Positions 17,456-28,086 of a stretch of DNA of 51,148 bases are shown one piece after another. The notes beneath the pieces were generated by a model, which was given only the letters and a program-made list of their open reading frames with translations, made no database searches and had not been told where the DNA came from. Every line of letters begins with the position of its first letter. The first letter of the stretch is position 1. Source of the DNA: an uncultured Ectothiorhodospiraceae bacterium. GTDB taxonomy: Bacteria; Pseudomonadota; Gammaproteobacteria; Nitrococcales; Nitrococcaceae. Location: assembly GCA_913056315.1 (NCBI GenBank), contig CAJXMZ010000003.1, forward strand, positions 1-51,148. The letters are read 5' to 3'. The position numbers and the translations under genes were made by a program.

Positions 17456-18418
17456 CTAGTTGCCGAGCAGCTCGCTCAAAGCCCGCTGGGCGATCGCCAG
17501 TGGCCGATTCGTATCCTGCGTCCACTCGGTCATCGACCCATCGTAGAGCGAGACATTATCGAGCTCAGCCACTTCCGAGAGCGCAAACCATGCGGTCGCA
17601 GCCCAGTGCCCGGTGTTGCAAAAGGAAATAATCGGCTGACCGGTCTCAATACCCGCAACACTGACCAGTTCTTCGACTTCGCTACGGTCGATAAACAACG
17701 CCGTGCCTTGGTTAACCAATAAACGCTCCTCGAGGCTAGCTGCACCGGGAATCGTGCCGGCGTTAAGGGCCGCGGGATGCTTTGTTTTGCCGCTATATTG
17801 ATCGGCCGGACGTGCGTCGACCAGCTGCTCGCCGGCATCGAGCGCGGCTTCGACGGCTTGAGTATCCGCTAATAGCGCTGGCCGTGGCTGCGCGGTGAAG
17901 GTCGTCGCGACCGGCGCGCTTGGGCCAGTTGCCTGCGCCCCACCGGCATCAAGCCAAGCCTGATAACCGCCATTGAGGATAGCGACTGAATCGTGACCCA
18001 AATATTTAAAAGTCCAATACACGCGAGCGGCACTACCAAAGTCGGTCGAGCCAACCCCAGCCGGCACAACCACGACCGTGTCGTCGTTAGTAATACCCAA
18101 CGACCCAATCAGTGCTTCTAAATCACTGACCGGCGGTACTTTACCGGGCACACCATCAGCGGCCACACGCCAGCCGGCGCCGGTGTAGCTTGCGTAAACC
18201 GCATGGGGGATATGACCGTTGGCAAAGCCCTGCGCGTTGGTCCCATCAATACCAGAGCGCACATCAACGATAACCAGTTCGTCATCATTGAGATGGGTTT
18301 GGAGCCACTGACTGTCGACTAGCGGTGTAACGGACGGCCCCGCTTGAGCCTGGCCTAGGCTAACCAAACCAATGAGGGCCGCGGTTAGCATAATGAAACG
18401 AATAGGGGATAGCGCCAT
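17456..18418 (-). CDS. Exported sulfurtransferase with two rhodanese domains
   Basis: This 320-residue protein has a signal peptide (hydrophobic FIMLTAALIGLVSLGQAQA, cleavage likely after AQA near residue 26), so it acts in the periplasm. Two rhodanese domains follow. The N-terminal one (about 30-160) lacks a catalytic cysteine; the corresponding loop reads VVPAGVGSTDFGSA. The C-terminal one (about 180-305) has Cys267 in ISFCNTGHWAATAW, the active-site loop of thiosulfate/3-mercaptopyruvate-type sulfurtransferases. It would move sulfane sulfur from thiosulfate to an acceptor. Lying 16 bp upstream of a YeeE transporter gene, it may process or hand over sulfur during uptake. The role is inferred from the pairing. 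Confidence 0.93.
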   Translation of the reverse strand: MALSPIRFIMLTAALIGLVSLGQAQAGPSVTPLVDSQWLQTHLNDDELVIVDVRSGIDGTNAQGFANGHIPHAVYASYTGAGWRVAADGVPGKVPPVSDLEALIGSLGITNDDTVVVVPAGVGSTDFGSAARVYWTFKYLGHDSVAILNGGYQAWLDAGGAQATGPSAPVATTFTAQPRPALLADTQAVEAALDAGEQLVDARPADQYSGKTKHPAALNAGTIPGAASLEERLLVNQGTALFIDRSEVEELVSVAGIETGQPIISFCNTGHWAATAWFALSEVAELDNVSLYDGSMTEWTQDTNRPLAIAQRALSELLGN

Positions 18419-24813: not shown

Positions 24814-25095
24814 TTACCAGGAGCGGCGCGGGCCACCCCCACCACCAGCAGGCTTACGATCTTGCGCTTCATTGATGCGCAAGGTGCGGCCGCCTAGCTC
24901 GGTCCCGTTGAGGGCCTCGATAGCGGCATCCGCTTCAGCGGGATCCATGCGTACAAAGCCAAAGCCGCGAGGACGACCGGTTTCCCGATCTGAAATCATA
25001 CGGACTTCTTTGACTTCGCCATGCTCGCCAAACAGGTCGCGGATTTCATCTTCGGTGGCGGAAAAGGGCAGATTGCCCACGTAAATCGATTTCAT
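24814..25095 (-). CDS. RNA-binding protein with one RRM domain
   Basis: This 93-residue protein is essentially a single RRM fold. RNP2 is SIYVGNLPF near residue 3, and RNP1 is RGFGFVRM near residue 42. A short Gly/Arg tail (GGGGGPRRSW) follows. Such glycine-tailed RRM proteins bind single-stranded RNA and are known in cyanobacteria and many proteobacteria, often being cold-inducible. The start is placed at the ATG at 25095; a GTG directly before it is possible. No strong Shine-Dalgarno sequence is visible. A strong terminator follows. The 170-bp stretch upstream, before the TTL-like gene, holds no gene; it has a short GC hairpin near 25184-25200 without a T run. Confidence 0.93.
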   Translation of the reverse strand: MKSIYVGNLPFSATEDEIRDLFGEHGEVKEVRMISDRETGRPRGFGFVRMDPAEADAAIEALNGTELGGRTLRINEAQDRKPAGGGGGPRRSW

Positions 25096-25268
25096 CACTT
25101 AGTCTCATCAAGCTCTGCCGACGTGATAGCGTGCGGCAGGTCAAACATAGCAGAGAGCAAAAATCACTCTCCGTCGGACGGCCCGAACGTCGGGCTGCCA
25201 GGATCATCAAACCCGTCAGGGATCGCAAATCTTGGCTTGACAATACGGCAGCATGGCGTTCCATGCAA

Positions 25269-26732
25269 TCACAATCTCGAATTGACCTCGGTTTGCCGAA
25301 GTAATCCGCTTTGCGCCCACTGACCCAACACCGCCCAAACCTCCTGCCGCGCTTGCCCAAGGCTTGGCGCAGAATCACTCGCTACCGTCTCAACCAACGC
25401 CGCAGCAATAGAATCAGCCGCCATTCCTGAGGCGGCTTGAAGCCATATCCAAGAGGCCGTTGCGTTCGGGGCGAAGACTTCGCCGGTGACTGTGTGCACC
25501 AACTTAAGGCCGTCTTGTTGATAGCGCTCTTCCACTTGCCAGGGGGCATAGACCGGCGACCAATCGTGCCCCAGTGCGGATTGTGCGGCTATCTGATCAA
25601 TAAGACTGGGCGCTGCGAGCATCGACCAATACGCAGGCGAATCAGCTGCTGGAAACAGTCGCTTAAATTGATGCGTGGCGTTACTTGGTTCATTAACGAT
25701 GCCGACACGCACCAGCAAATCATCGACAAGCGCTTTTTTCATCACATGCTCAGCACGACCGCCCGTCGCCACGTCAGCGCAAATCTCTAGCGATGGACTT
25801 AAGTTACATTCCAGCAACCACGGCTTGAGATTGGCATCGATTAGGCAGTCCAATCCGAGCAACTCATAGACTTGGTTTGGCGCAATGCCCGCCTGGGCAC
25901 AGCGTTCACGCATACCGCTGGCCGCGGCCATCACGGTTTGCACAATCACCGCATCGATCGACGCCATTAAACGCTCAGGATCGTGTCCCGCTTGACGCAA
26001 GCGCTCGGCATAAGCGCTCAGCGATAGAAACGTTACTCCCCCATCGGGGTTACGAGCGTTGACATCGGGATTGGTCAGATAGGCATAGACATTGTCACGT
26101 TCAGCAGGATCCCAAGGCGCTGAGGCCAACTTCACCGAGCCCTCGTTAAAGCGCTCTATGCACAACGGCTCAAGCGATGAAATCAGCACATATAAGCGCA
26201 AGACATACTTATAGCCATCAAGCGTATGCGGCTGATCTAAATAACGCTGCACAACCCAGCCCGAGTGTTGGGGCACTTCAGCGACCGAGTCCGTTAAGTA
26301 AATACCCTCACCGCGTGCGGCATTAGCAGGCTTAACAATCCAAGCGCTGTCGGGCGAGGTGTTCGCGGCGGCCTGCAACGCGGCAAAATCCTCGGGCATA
26401 TTAAAAGTGGCCGGCAAAAAGCTTGGCCATTGCGCTTGAGGATCATGTCCAGGCAGGTTCTGCCAGCGCCTTAGCGCTGTCTGCAACGTTTGATGCAACG
26501 CACTTTTAACCGTGATTTGGTTGTTGCCGGGAATGTGATTAATGGTTTGGCCCGGCGCCAACCGCTGGTAAACAGCCGGGGCAGGCATGGGTGTAATCCA
26601 AGCCGCATCCCAGTGAGTAGAGTCACCTGCCAGCCAGCCCCGCGCACTTAGCGCTTCAACAAAAAACCGCGCCTGCTCGGGGTCGTCATCGTCCCCAAGC
26701 CAGTAGCGCAGCGGCTGATCGGCGTTACTCAC
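25269..26732 (-). CDS. Tubulin-tyrosine-ligase-like ATP-grasp protein fused to a C-terminal PqqD-like domain
   Basis: The protein has 487 residues from a GTG at 26732 that has AAGGAG 10 bp upstream. Residues about 60-320 carry the TTL/TTLL pattern. TINHIPGNNQITVK is followed by the ATP-binding WIVKPANAARGEGIYL (131-146) and VVQRYLDQPHTLDGYKYVLR (160-179). RLYVLISSLEPL comes next, then the metal-binding LLGLDCLIDANLKPWLLECN (291-310) with LSPSL. TTL enzymes use ATP to ligate an amino acid to a protein carboxyl group. Residues about 405-485 (HTVTGEVFAPNATASWIWLQ, ending WAQSGLLRQ) fit the PqqD/RRE fold, which binds leader peptides in peptide-modification systems. The fusion suggests a peptide- or protein-modifying ligase with built-in substrate recognition. 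Substrate unknown; a divergent DoxX and PEA-repeat protein pair starts on the other side of the promoter. Confidence 0.88.
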   Translation of the reverse strand: MSNADQPLRYWLGDDDDPEQARFFVEALSARGWLAGDSTHWDAAWITPMPAPAVYQRLAPGQTINHIPGNNQITVKSALHQTLQTALRRWQNLPGHDPQAQWPSFLPATFNMPEDFAALQAAANTSPDSAWIVKPANAARGEGIYLTDSVAEVPQHSGWVVQRYLDQPHTLDGYKYVLRLYVLISSLEPLCIERFNEGSVKLASAPWDPAERDNVYAYLTNPDVNARNPDGGVTFLSLSAYAERLRQAGHDPERLMASIDAVIVQTVMAAASGMRERCAQAGIAPNQVYELLGLDCLIDANLKPWLLECNLSPSLEICADVATGGRAEHVMKKALVDDLLVRVGIVNEPSNATHQFKRLFPAADSPAYWSMLAAPSLIDQIAAQSALGHDWSPVYAPWQVEERYQQDGLKLVHTVTGEVFAPNATASWIWLQAASGMAADSIAAALVETVASDSAPSLGQARQEVWAVLGQWAQSGLLRQTEVNSRL

Positions 26733-26768
26733 CTAAAATTCTCCTTCATCATCGGTATGATGGTGATA

Positions 26769-26774
26769 ATTATA
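26769..26774 (-). promoter_or_regulatory. Possible -10 box of the TTL-like gene
   Basis: The minus strand reads TATAAT, a perfect sigma-70 -10 hexamer, 36 bp before the GTG start of the TTL-like gene. The -35 position is weak. The same AT-rich patch could serve the divergent DoxX gene. Confidence 0.45.
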
Positions 26775-26789
26775 GCCACGGTGCCTTTT

Positions 26790-27209
26790 ATGCCTGCCCC
26801 ACTCCATAGCAATGATGCTTTGTTAAATGCCCAAGCACGGCATGGACATTGGTTGCTGCGCACGCCCCTTGCCGCGGTGATGCTCTATCATGGCGTGGAA
26901 AAATGGTTGGTTATTGGCGTTGAGACCTTCGCGCAAACCATGGGACTACCCATTGCACTCGCCGTGCTGGTCGCGGTGATCGAGGTGCTGGCCGGTATCG
27001 CCCTACTGGCGGGTGCGTTTGCCGGCGGCTGGATCACGCGCAGCGGCGCTGCACTGACCTGCCCGGTATTGTTGGGGGCGGTTTTTTATGTGCACTGGGG
27101 ACAATGGCACTTTCTACCCAGCGCAAGCCATCCCATGGGCGGGCTAGAGTTTCAGATCACGTTGCTCGGCATTGCCATTTACCTGCTCATTCGGGGTAAC
27201 GAGGTTTAA
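26790..27209 (+). CDS. DoxX family membrane protein
   Basis: The protein has about 139 residues if it starts at the ATG at 26790, which I prefer because the longer frame from 26757 would run through the -10 region. Four hydrophobic helices are visible, with the DoxX-type first helix WLLRTPLAAVMLYHGVEKWL, then ALAVLVAVIEVLAGIALLAG, a third helix, and the conserved GGLEFQITLLGIAIYLLIRG end. DoxX proteins are small inner-membrane proteins of varied use, some linked to quinone or sulfur oxidation and others to metal-responsive peptide operons. Function here is unknown. It is divergent from the TTL-like gene and is followed after 10 bp by a PEA-repeat protein. Confidence 0.85.
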   Translation: MPAPLHSNDALLNAQARHGHWLLRTPLAAVMLYHGVEKWLVIGVETFAQTMGLPIALAVLVAVIEVLAGIALLAGAFAGGWITRSGAALTCPVLLGAVFYVHWGQWHFLPSASHPMGGLEFQITLLGIAIYLLIRGNEV

Positions 27210-27219
27210 CGCCACGCTT

Positions 27220-27513
27220 ATGTCCAATCAAGATAAAAAACGTCAACAACTGCTGGCTCGCCTATCGCGAGGGCTGGTGTATACAACGCCCCTGCTGGTG
27301 GCGGTAACCGGCGCGGCCGGTATGCATGCGATGATTTCTGATTTCCGCGAGGCGCCCGCACAAAGCCCTGAGGCCAGCGCCGAGGCCATGCCAGAGGCCA
27401 CGCCAGAAGCAACTCCGGAAGCAACGCCCGAGGCCACACCACAGGCAACCCCAGAAGCCACCCCAGAGGCAATGCCCGAGGCCATGCCCGAGGCCTCCGG
27501 CTCAAACAATTAA
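27220..27513 (+). CDS. Small membrane protein with a Pro-Glu-Ala tetrapeptide-repeat tail
   Basis: This 97-residue protein starts at the ATG at 27220, 10 bp after DoxX. A basic N-terminus (MSNQDKKRQQLLARLSRG) precedes one membrane helix (LVYTTPLLVAVTGAAGMHAM). The second half is a tandem series of four-residue units of the type x-P-E-A, where x is S, T or M, about eleven copies ending EASGSNN. The tail is acidic, Pro-rich and likely extended outside the membrane. No homologue is known to me. Operon position ties it to DoxX and, through the shared promoter region, to the TTL-like ligase. Glutamate-rich tails are the type of substrate TTL-family enzymes modify in eukaryotes, an analogy only. 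Confidence 0.7.
   Translation: MSNQDKKRQQLLARLSRGLVYTTPLLVAVTGAAGMHAMISDFREAPAQSPEASAEAMPEATPEATPEATPEATPQATPEATPEAMPEAMPEASGSNN
27361..27500 (+). repeat. Degenerate 12-bp tandem repeat coding for (S/T/M)PEA
   Basis: About eleven 12-bp units with variable third positions (for example gaggccacgcca and gaagcaactccg) encode the repeated tetrapeptide. Synonymous variation between units shows the repeat is old or selected at the protein level rather than a fresh slippage product. Confidence 0.85.
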
Positions 27514-27522
27514 TTGGCTTGG

Positions 27523-28086
<564 letters not shown>

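Follow-up and report, generated by a model that had tools for sequence, protein, structure and literature searches.

A bacterial TTL-family enzyme with a PqqD-like domain and its leader-bearing, glutamate-rich partners: a candidate protein-modification system

A 51,148-nucleotide stretch of DNA from an uncultured Ectothiorhodospiraceae bacterium (hereafter the window) encodes an enzyme in which an ATP-grasp domain of the tubulin tyrosine ligase (TTL) family is followed by a PqqD-like domain. The linkage between homologues of this enzyme and a family of small partner proteins, which begin with a conserved leader and continue as glutamate-rich repeats, is strong. Based on sequence comparison, we consider it probable that enzyme and partner form a two-part, RiPP-like protein-modification system. 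In such a system the PqqD-like domain would grip the leader and the TTL domain would ligate amino acids, probably glutamate, onto glutamate side chains, after which the product would be exported. Features of the window locus, and the partner proteins that resemble cytochromes, are collected in Table 1.

Table 1. Features of the enzyme locus and cytochrome-like partner proteins. Positions are those of the window unless preceded by a locus label.
Feature	Position	Strand	Basis
TTL-PqqD enzyme, 487 aa, GTG start	25269..26732	(-)	ORF; Pfam TTL and PqqD; homologues
PqqD/RRE-like domain, aa 411-478	25299..25502	(-)	Pfam E 3.4e-6; family profile
TTL-family ATP-grasp domain, aa 61-319	25776..26552	(-)	Pfam TTL; conserved residues
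DoxX membrane protein, start re-assigned from 26757	26790..27209	(+)	Pfam DoxX E 1.6e-10
Proposed substrate, 97 aa, leader and Glu repeats (PEAT type)	27220..27513	(+)	Leader profile; homologues
Conserved leader, aa 1-41 of partner	27220..27342	(+)	Alignment of leaders
Glutamate-rich PEAx-repeat tail, GAA/GAG and GCN codons mixed	27364..27510	(+)	
Type C cytochrome-like protein, leader and Glu repeats before haem-binding domain	L011:6869-7642	(-)	
Type C, same architecture	L012:7010-7759	(-)	
Type C, same architecture	L041:12813-13511	(-)	
Type C, same architecture	L045:11578-12231	(-)	
Type C, same architecture	L058:10104-10784	(+)	
Type C, same architecture	L066:6095-6739	(-)	
Type C, same architecture	L067:2502-3200	(+)	

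The TTL domain and its nearest relatives

An earlier note, made from the window sequence, had described a TTL-family enzyme with functional-looking ATP-grasp motifs and a C-terminal PqqD-like domain, and our analysis bears out this description. Both Pfam domains score above their cut-offs within a single reading frame, and the fusion is not an assembly artefact, because proteins from other genomes have the same domain order at 38-53% identity. On the minus strand, AAGGAG lies 8 bases upstream of the GTG start of the enzyme gene; a sigma-70-like promoter was sought in 25000-27700 and none was found. The window's own genome has no second match to the enzyme at E 0.001. Considering a mobile origin, we also searched plasmid and phage collections for the enzyme, which gave no match.

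The TTL assignment is borne out by sequence and by a fold search. The Pfam model (PF03133) matches the window enzyme at E 6.8e-49, with 167.1 bits against a cut-off of 20.1, and a search of the Protein Data Bank with the window protein gave TTLL6 structures as its best relatives (E 2.8e-38). When a profile of 17 homologues was compared with solved structures, TTLL6 (3.5e-63), TTLL7 (1.4e-57) and TTLL11 (7.5e-32) ranked above 5vlq (8.7e-23) and the best TTL match (3.7e-18). A Foldseek search, run with the window model alone, which is of modest quality (mean pLDDT 59.4), agrees in placing TTLL6 first (E 7.3e-19).

Catalytic residues are conserved among the homologues compared. We checked 12 positions of the ATP-grasp domain in 24 proteins, a set that includes the window's and leaves out L049, a TTL protein without PqqD. 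Eleven positions are invariant in all 24, among them K134, G141, Q162, K175, R179, D295, D299, E308 and N310. The catalytic residues of ATP-grasp enzymes follow the pattern K, D and E-x-N; in the window enzyme these are K134, D295, E308 and N310, all invariant. The motifs quoted in the earlier note fall within blocks conserved among homologues, and the loss of ATP-binding residues that it had named as a refutation was not found.

The remaining position, R140, is R in 21 of the 24 proteins and K in three. It aligns opposite Q180 of TTLL6, with numbering carried over by a 50-residue offset between constructs. Q180 is cited as the determinant of TTLL6 elongase selectivity (PMC12366701), and judging from structure alignments and titles, the chain of an engineered TTLL6 mutant has R at this position. 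Taken together, these observations hint that the bacterial enzymes may carry out an initiating reaction on side chains.

The same system might instead use an amino acid other than glutamate, such as glycine, or might add to the C terminus, as TTL does with tyrosine. The TTL family does include glycylases, according to PMC12340829, and a tyrosine ligase, but glutamylases outrank TTL in both the sequence and the fold comparisons. Addition at the C terminus is further disfavoured because the last residues of the proposed substrates vary. We consider this reading fairly unlikely, and glutamate addition to side chains remains the reaction that we propose.

Distribution of the enzyme and its long and short forms

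TTL-PqqD proteins were found in 8 of the 23 genomes of the window's family, 17 of the 54 genomes of its order, 3 of 321 genomes in a sample of its class and 3 of 398 in a sample of its phylum, the latter two samples being even draws and not complete sets. The four samples overlap, with the window genome in each, and overlap also with a genome collection in which three contigs carry such proteins (Modicisalibacter tunisiensis, a Parvularculaceae MAG and an alphaproteobacterial MAG). The class sample contains five further genomes in which the TTL match ends before PqqD (G340, G273, G157 and G094 were called PqqD-free from the aligned region and ORF length alone), and the phylum sample adds four matches that are weak or partial. 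In these surveys an absence carries less weight than a presence, because the number of candidates scored per genome was limited: among the rows listed, up to 22 in the class leader survey, 4 in the class enzyme survey and 2 in the phylum enzyme survey. Genome G246 has a TTL protein without PqqD and no match to the partner leader. L049:8759-9862(+) encodes a TTL protein of 367 residues without PqqD, in a genome that gave no leader hit.

The 24 proteins fall into two forms. In 18, none of which belongs to the window's genus, a poorly conserved region of about 300 residues comes after PqqD, for a total length of 770-914 residues. The other six, including the window protein, lack this region and all come from the window's own genus, where they form two separate groups on the tree, so two changes are required.

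As a suggestion, this C-terminal region may be a degenerate HprK-like kinase. The hhalign comparison behind it is weak (probability 23.6, E 8.6e-4), and in it the Walker A stretch faces residues without a Walker A motif. The enzyme profile also matches a protein of genome G529 over its PqqD and C-terminal parts (positions 436-649), and this protein matches a model of HprK-related kinase A at E 1.2e-18 and 67.2 bits, below the cut-off of 200.

The additional region at L011:9474-10370(+) exemplifies the long form and is perhaps an HprK-like domain that has degenerated and lacks Walker A. In the distant genome G529, the protein encoded at L068:7592-8746(+), whose match to the profile spans PqqD and the C-terminal part, has a GxxGxGKTT motif; by its pattern, the gene that follows presumably encodes something like a nucleotidyltransferase.

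The PqqD-like domain

At the sequence level, the PqqD assignment made in the earlier note is upheld. The Pfam match in the window enzyme reaches 27.7 bits against a cut-off of 23.4. Six homologues were scanned, of which three score above this cut-off (L010, 28.5; L033, 26.4; L011, 26.3) and three below it (L012, 22.6; L039, 21.6; L044, 15.8). With its PqqD region, the family profile further matches two lasso-peptide proteins that bind leaders, TbiB1 (E 0.0042) and TfuB1 (E 0.012), represented by structures 5v1u and 6jx3.

The fold of PqqD and of RiPP recognition elements consists of a three-stranded sheet and three helices. Structure models, built from four-row alignments, are poor overall (43.8 mean pLDDT for the long homologue, lower than for the window protein). 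The window model places strands at residues 400-405, 408-413 and 419-421 and helices at 424-434, 439-449 and 458-474, with a block pLDDT of 50-79 over residues 401-470. Models of this quality give just a weak test of whether a PqqD fold is missing, a result that the earlier note had named as a refutation.

It is improbable, in our estimation, that the PqqD-like region serves as a structural linker or pairs with the C-terminal region, with the leader acting merely as a conserved export signal. This reading overlaps with the others considered here and would leave room for the proposed substrate and chemistry. It draws on the succession of PqqD and a possible HprK-like region in the long homologues, on the match of the G529 protein over both parts, on the half of the scanned homologues that fall below the Pfam cut-off and on the poor quality of the models. 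Against it, the short forms retain PqqD and drop the C-terminal region, and the profile extends to lasso-peptide proteins. Furthermore, the leader shows a specificity beyond that of an ordinary export signal, with 318 of the 321 class genomes hitless at E 0.001 and at most 22 candidates scored in each. A PqqD-like domain that engages the leader is the reading we carry forward.

Glutamate-rich partner proteins

Partner proteins were located by motif and glutamate content in all six frames. An initial clustering of the neighbourhoods by BLAST merged long ORFs that were partly spurious, and the motif and glutamate search replaced it. Members of the family open with some 40 conserved residues, the leader, whose pattern is roughly R-x-x-LL-x-x-LSRG-x-x-Y-x-x-PL, and continue as glutamate-rich repeats (EAEG, EGEG or PEAT). 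In two alignments of the leader, 6 columns are invariant across 13 sequences and 8 across 8 sequences. The window partner, whose start was re-assigned from a TTG ORF at 27172-27513, matches the leader profile at E 8.3e-25, its own sequence being part of that profile. Across leader and repeats, no Pfam or NCBIfam family scored above cut-off in the partners scanned. PHROGs matches to the window partner are confined to the repeat part (aa 35-92) and belong to families of unknown function.

Three types can be distinguished. Type A partners have EAEG or PEAx tails and type B partners have EGEG tails. In type C, represented by seven cases, the leader and glutamate repeats are followed by a SoxA/TsdA-like cytochrome c domain; five of the seven pass the Pfam cut-off for SoxA-TsdA, L058 exceeds only the cut-off for CCP_MauG, and L045 exceeds neither. 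Cytochrome c matures outside the cytoplasm. The partner proteins are probably exported, to judge from the hydrophobic leader and the fusions to cytochrome c.

Glutamate is the constant component of all kinds of tail. We tabulated 34 tails, with borders set by a crude script rule; the table does not include L055 or L057, nor the fusions to cytochrome in L041 and L045, nor a type-A copy of L044 that looks broken. Glutamate codons are a mixture of GAA and GAG in 33 of the 34 (the type B tail of L067 has GAA only), and this mixture of synonymous codons suggests that the repeats are kept at the protein level. The L044 copy (L044:7413-7790(+)) departs from the reading frame of its relatives after the leader and is possibly a broken gene.

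Graspetides combine an ATP-grasp ligase with a leader-bearing repetitive precursor whose core has carboxylate and nucleophile side chains. The system described here shares the ligase and the leader-bearing repetitive precursor, so its product could consist of intramolecular esters or amides that link glutamate carboxylates to Ser, Thr or Lys residues within the repeats. In the window tail, Thr stands alongside Glu in many PEAx units, an arrangement that would suit ester cross-links, and Ser occurs too; Lys is present in the L011 and L012 tails. However, within the script's borders two of the 34 tails (L045 type A and L043 type B) are devoid of K, S, T, Y, C and H, and thus lack a core of carboxylate plus nucleophile, and eight have only one such residue. 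With so few nucleophiles, internal cross-links are unlikely as the general product, though the window tail would allow them. In addition, the enzyme belongs to a different ATP-grasp family (TTL) and has a fused PqqD-like domain, and its closest solved relatives add external amino acids. A term search of the main text of a graspetide survey found neither "TTL" nor "tubulin" (PMC8939145). We regard a graspetide-like product as quite improbable and favour ligation of a free amino acid to the repeats.

Linkage of enzyme and partner

The earlier note had envisaged a small partner gene that accompanies the homologues, and had counted a neighbourhood that never repeats as evidence against its proposal. 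Such a gene exists, and it lies within 2 kb of the enzyme gene in 19 of the 24 loci. In the other five (G010, G015, G017, G018 and G040) the partner is elsewhere in the genome, and in G040 the enzyme gene is at a contig edge. The note's picture of a self-contained ligase is not quite accurate, since the enzyme probably acts on another protein, one that carries the leader. Linkage is seen in several families and in two alphaproteobacterial records. In G496 and G751, the new enzyme-bearing genomes of the phylum sample, which were searched afterwards, the partner adjoins the enzyme in both. These two and the five genomes with an unlinked partner are out-of-sample cases. As in RiPP systems, the product is short, the leader conserved, the core variable and the precursor gene co-encoded or co-occurring with the enzyme.

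Presence of the leader closely tracks presence of the enzyme. With hits counted at E 1e-5 or better, 19 of the order's 54 genomes contain the leader, comprising all 17 that are enzyme-positive and 2 of the 37 that are enzyme-negative (G011 and G019, whose completeness is 84% and 86%); weaker hits, in G046, G044, G021 and G004, were not counted as positive. The association has a Fisher p of 3.6e-12 and a within-genus permutation p of 1.3e-4. The leader profile was partly built from genomes that are counted here (8 of these 17 enzyme-positive genomes and, for the class, all three), and the nine enzyme-positive genomes of the order that are outside the profile all have the leader. In the class sample, at E 0.001 and with at most 22 candidates scored per genome, the leader occurs in 3 of 321 genomes, the same three that have TTL-PqqD; because all three were in the profile, the weight of this result rests on the 318 hitless genomes.

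It is highly improbable that the glutamate-repeat proteins share only genomic company or lineage with an enzyme whose true substrate is something else: the genomes are related by descent and G011 and G019 hold the partner without an enzyme match, but the association persists under permutation within genera, co-occurrence holds even where the genes are unlinked (G010, G015, G017 and G018), and linkage extends across several families and both alphaproteobacterial records.

A third gene, encoding a DoxX protein, is commonly part of the neighbourhood. In the window it lies 10 bases upstream of the partner gene, with both genes divergent from that of the enzyme, and the genome of the nearest homologue (G013) has the same arrangement. 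DoxX genes stand beside 18 of the 19 type-A partners, 17 recognized by motif and one (L032) by BLAST cluster, the exception being L066. The DoxX proteins scanned match the HvfX model below its cut-off.

Proposed mechanism and relation to known systems

We propose that the PqqD-like domain binds the conserved leader of the small substrate proteins, and that the TTL domain, with ATP, would then activate the side-chain carboxylates of glutamate residues in the repeats. A free amino acid, which is most likely glutamate, would be joined through its amino group to the activated residue, in the way that TTLL glutamylases modify tubulin tails and the Glu-Gly repeats of RPGR. Afterwards the leader may serve as an export signal, with both export and its place in this order being presumed, and a signal peptidase could act to remove it. 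The product would be an exported, strongly acidic glutamate tail, either free or attached to a cytochrome c domain, with DoxX as a putative membrane partner. Its physiological role could perhaps be that of a cation or metal buffer, or of a docking tail.

A more specific claim is that this is an undescribed bacterial polyglutamylation, in which a TTLL-type enzyme with a built-in leader-binding domain places side-chain glutamate branches on exported glutamate-repeat proteins, cytochromes c included, as a counterpart of the eukaryotic modification of tubulin tails and RPGR. We advance this version tentatively, judging its chances to be a little short of even. The likeness to TTLL polyglutamylases (TTLL6 and TTLL7, and TTLL5 acting on RPGR-ORF15) includes a homologous catalytic domain with conserved ATP-grasp residues and targets that are acidic, repetitive and glutamate-rich. 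In particular, the Glu-Gly repeats of RPGR, which TTLL5 modifies according to PMC13052805, resemble the EGEG tails of the partners. In contrast to the eukaryotic enzymes, the system is bacterial, a PqqD-like fusion replaces their microtubule-binding or cofactor-interaction regions, and the targets bear a leader and appear to be exported.

The bufferins and oxazolins, RiPPs made by MNIO enzymes, resemble the proposed system in several respects. As described in PMC12452194, they have signal-peptide precursors, adjoining DoxX genes, fusions of precursors to other domains and, in some oxazolin precursors, EG-rich repeats (EGKCG). Among the loci compared here there are likewise DoxX genes, leaders that probably direct export, EG-rich repeats and precursor fusions, and we considered membership in this group on account of DoxX and the EG repeats. 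The modifying enzyme of bufferins and oxazolins is MNIO, often with DUF2063, and the putative targets are Cys residues (same source). The window substrate is Cys-free, and membership was rejected because the window genome has no match to MNIO (PF05114); among the 23 genomes of the family, MNIO occurs only in G001 and G022, both without TTL-PqqD. Common ancestry of the two kinds of precursor is possible.

Other bacterial enzymes that add amino acids to proteins or peptides include RimK, which glutamylates ribosomal protein S6 (PMC4431377), SidJ and the PEARLs. These differ in enzyme family and target, and in the parts of the sources consulted none is described as a TTL plus PqqD. Within the open-licence literature nothing was found that joins tubulin tyrosine ligase, PqqD and ATP-grasp, and among the matches listed, at the level of titles and the openings of abstracts, no TTL-PqqD system is described.

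If the proposal is correct, this would be, to our knowledge, the first RiPP-like class based on TTL chemistry. It would show the role of one group of bacterial TTL enzymes, a matter relevant to how the eukaryotic tubulin code arose, and leader-directed glutamylation would offer a useful way to produce proteins with branched polyanionic tails. An amidoligase survey of 2009 by Iyer and others is said to discuss bacterial TTL proteins and may mention related ones. The proposed substrates are small and repetitive, and their genes lie beside that of the enzyme or elsewhere in its genome, so the prediction can be tested directly.

Rhodanese genes near the enzyme

A rhodanese gene is found near the enzyme gene in the window (17456-18418(-), about 7 kb away) and also in other genomes of the order, at L031, L039, L041, L042, L044 and L045. 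The combination of rhodanese, DoxX and SoxA/TsdA-like cytochromes could point to sulfur chemistry, or could be mere synteny.
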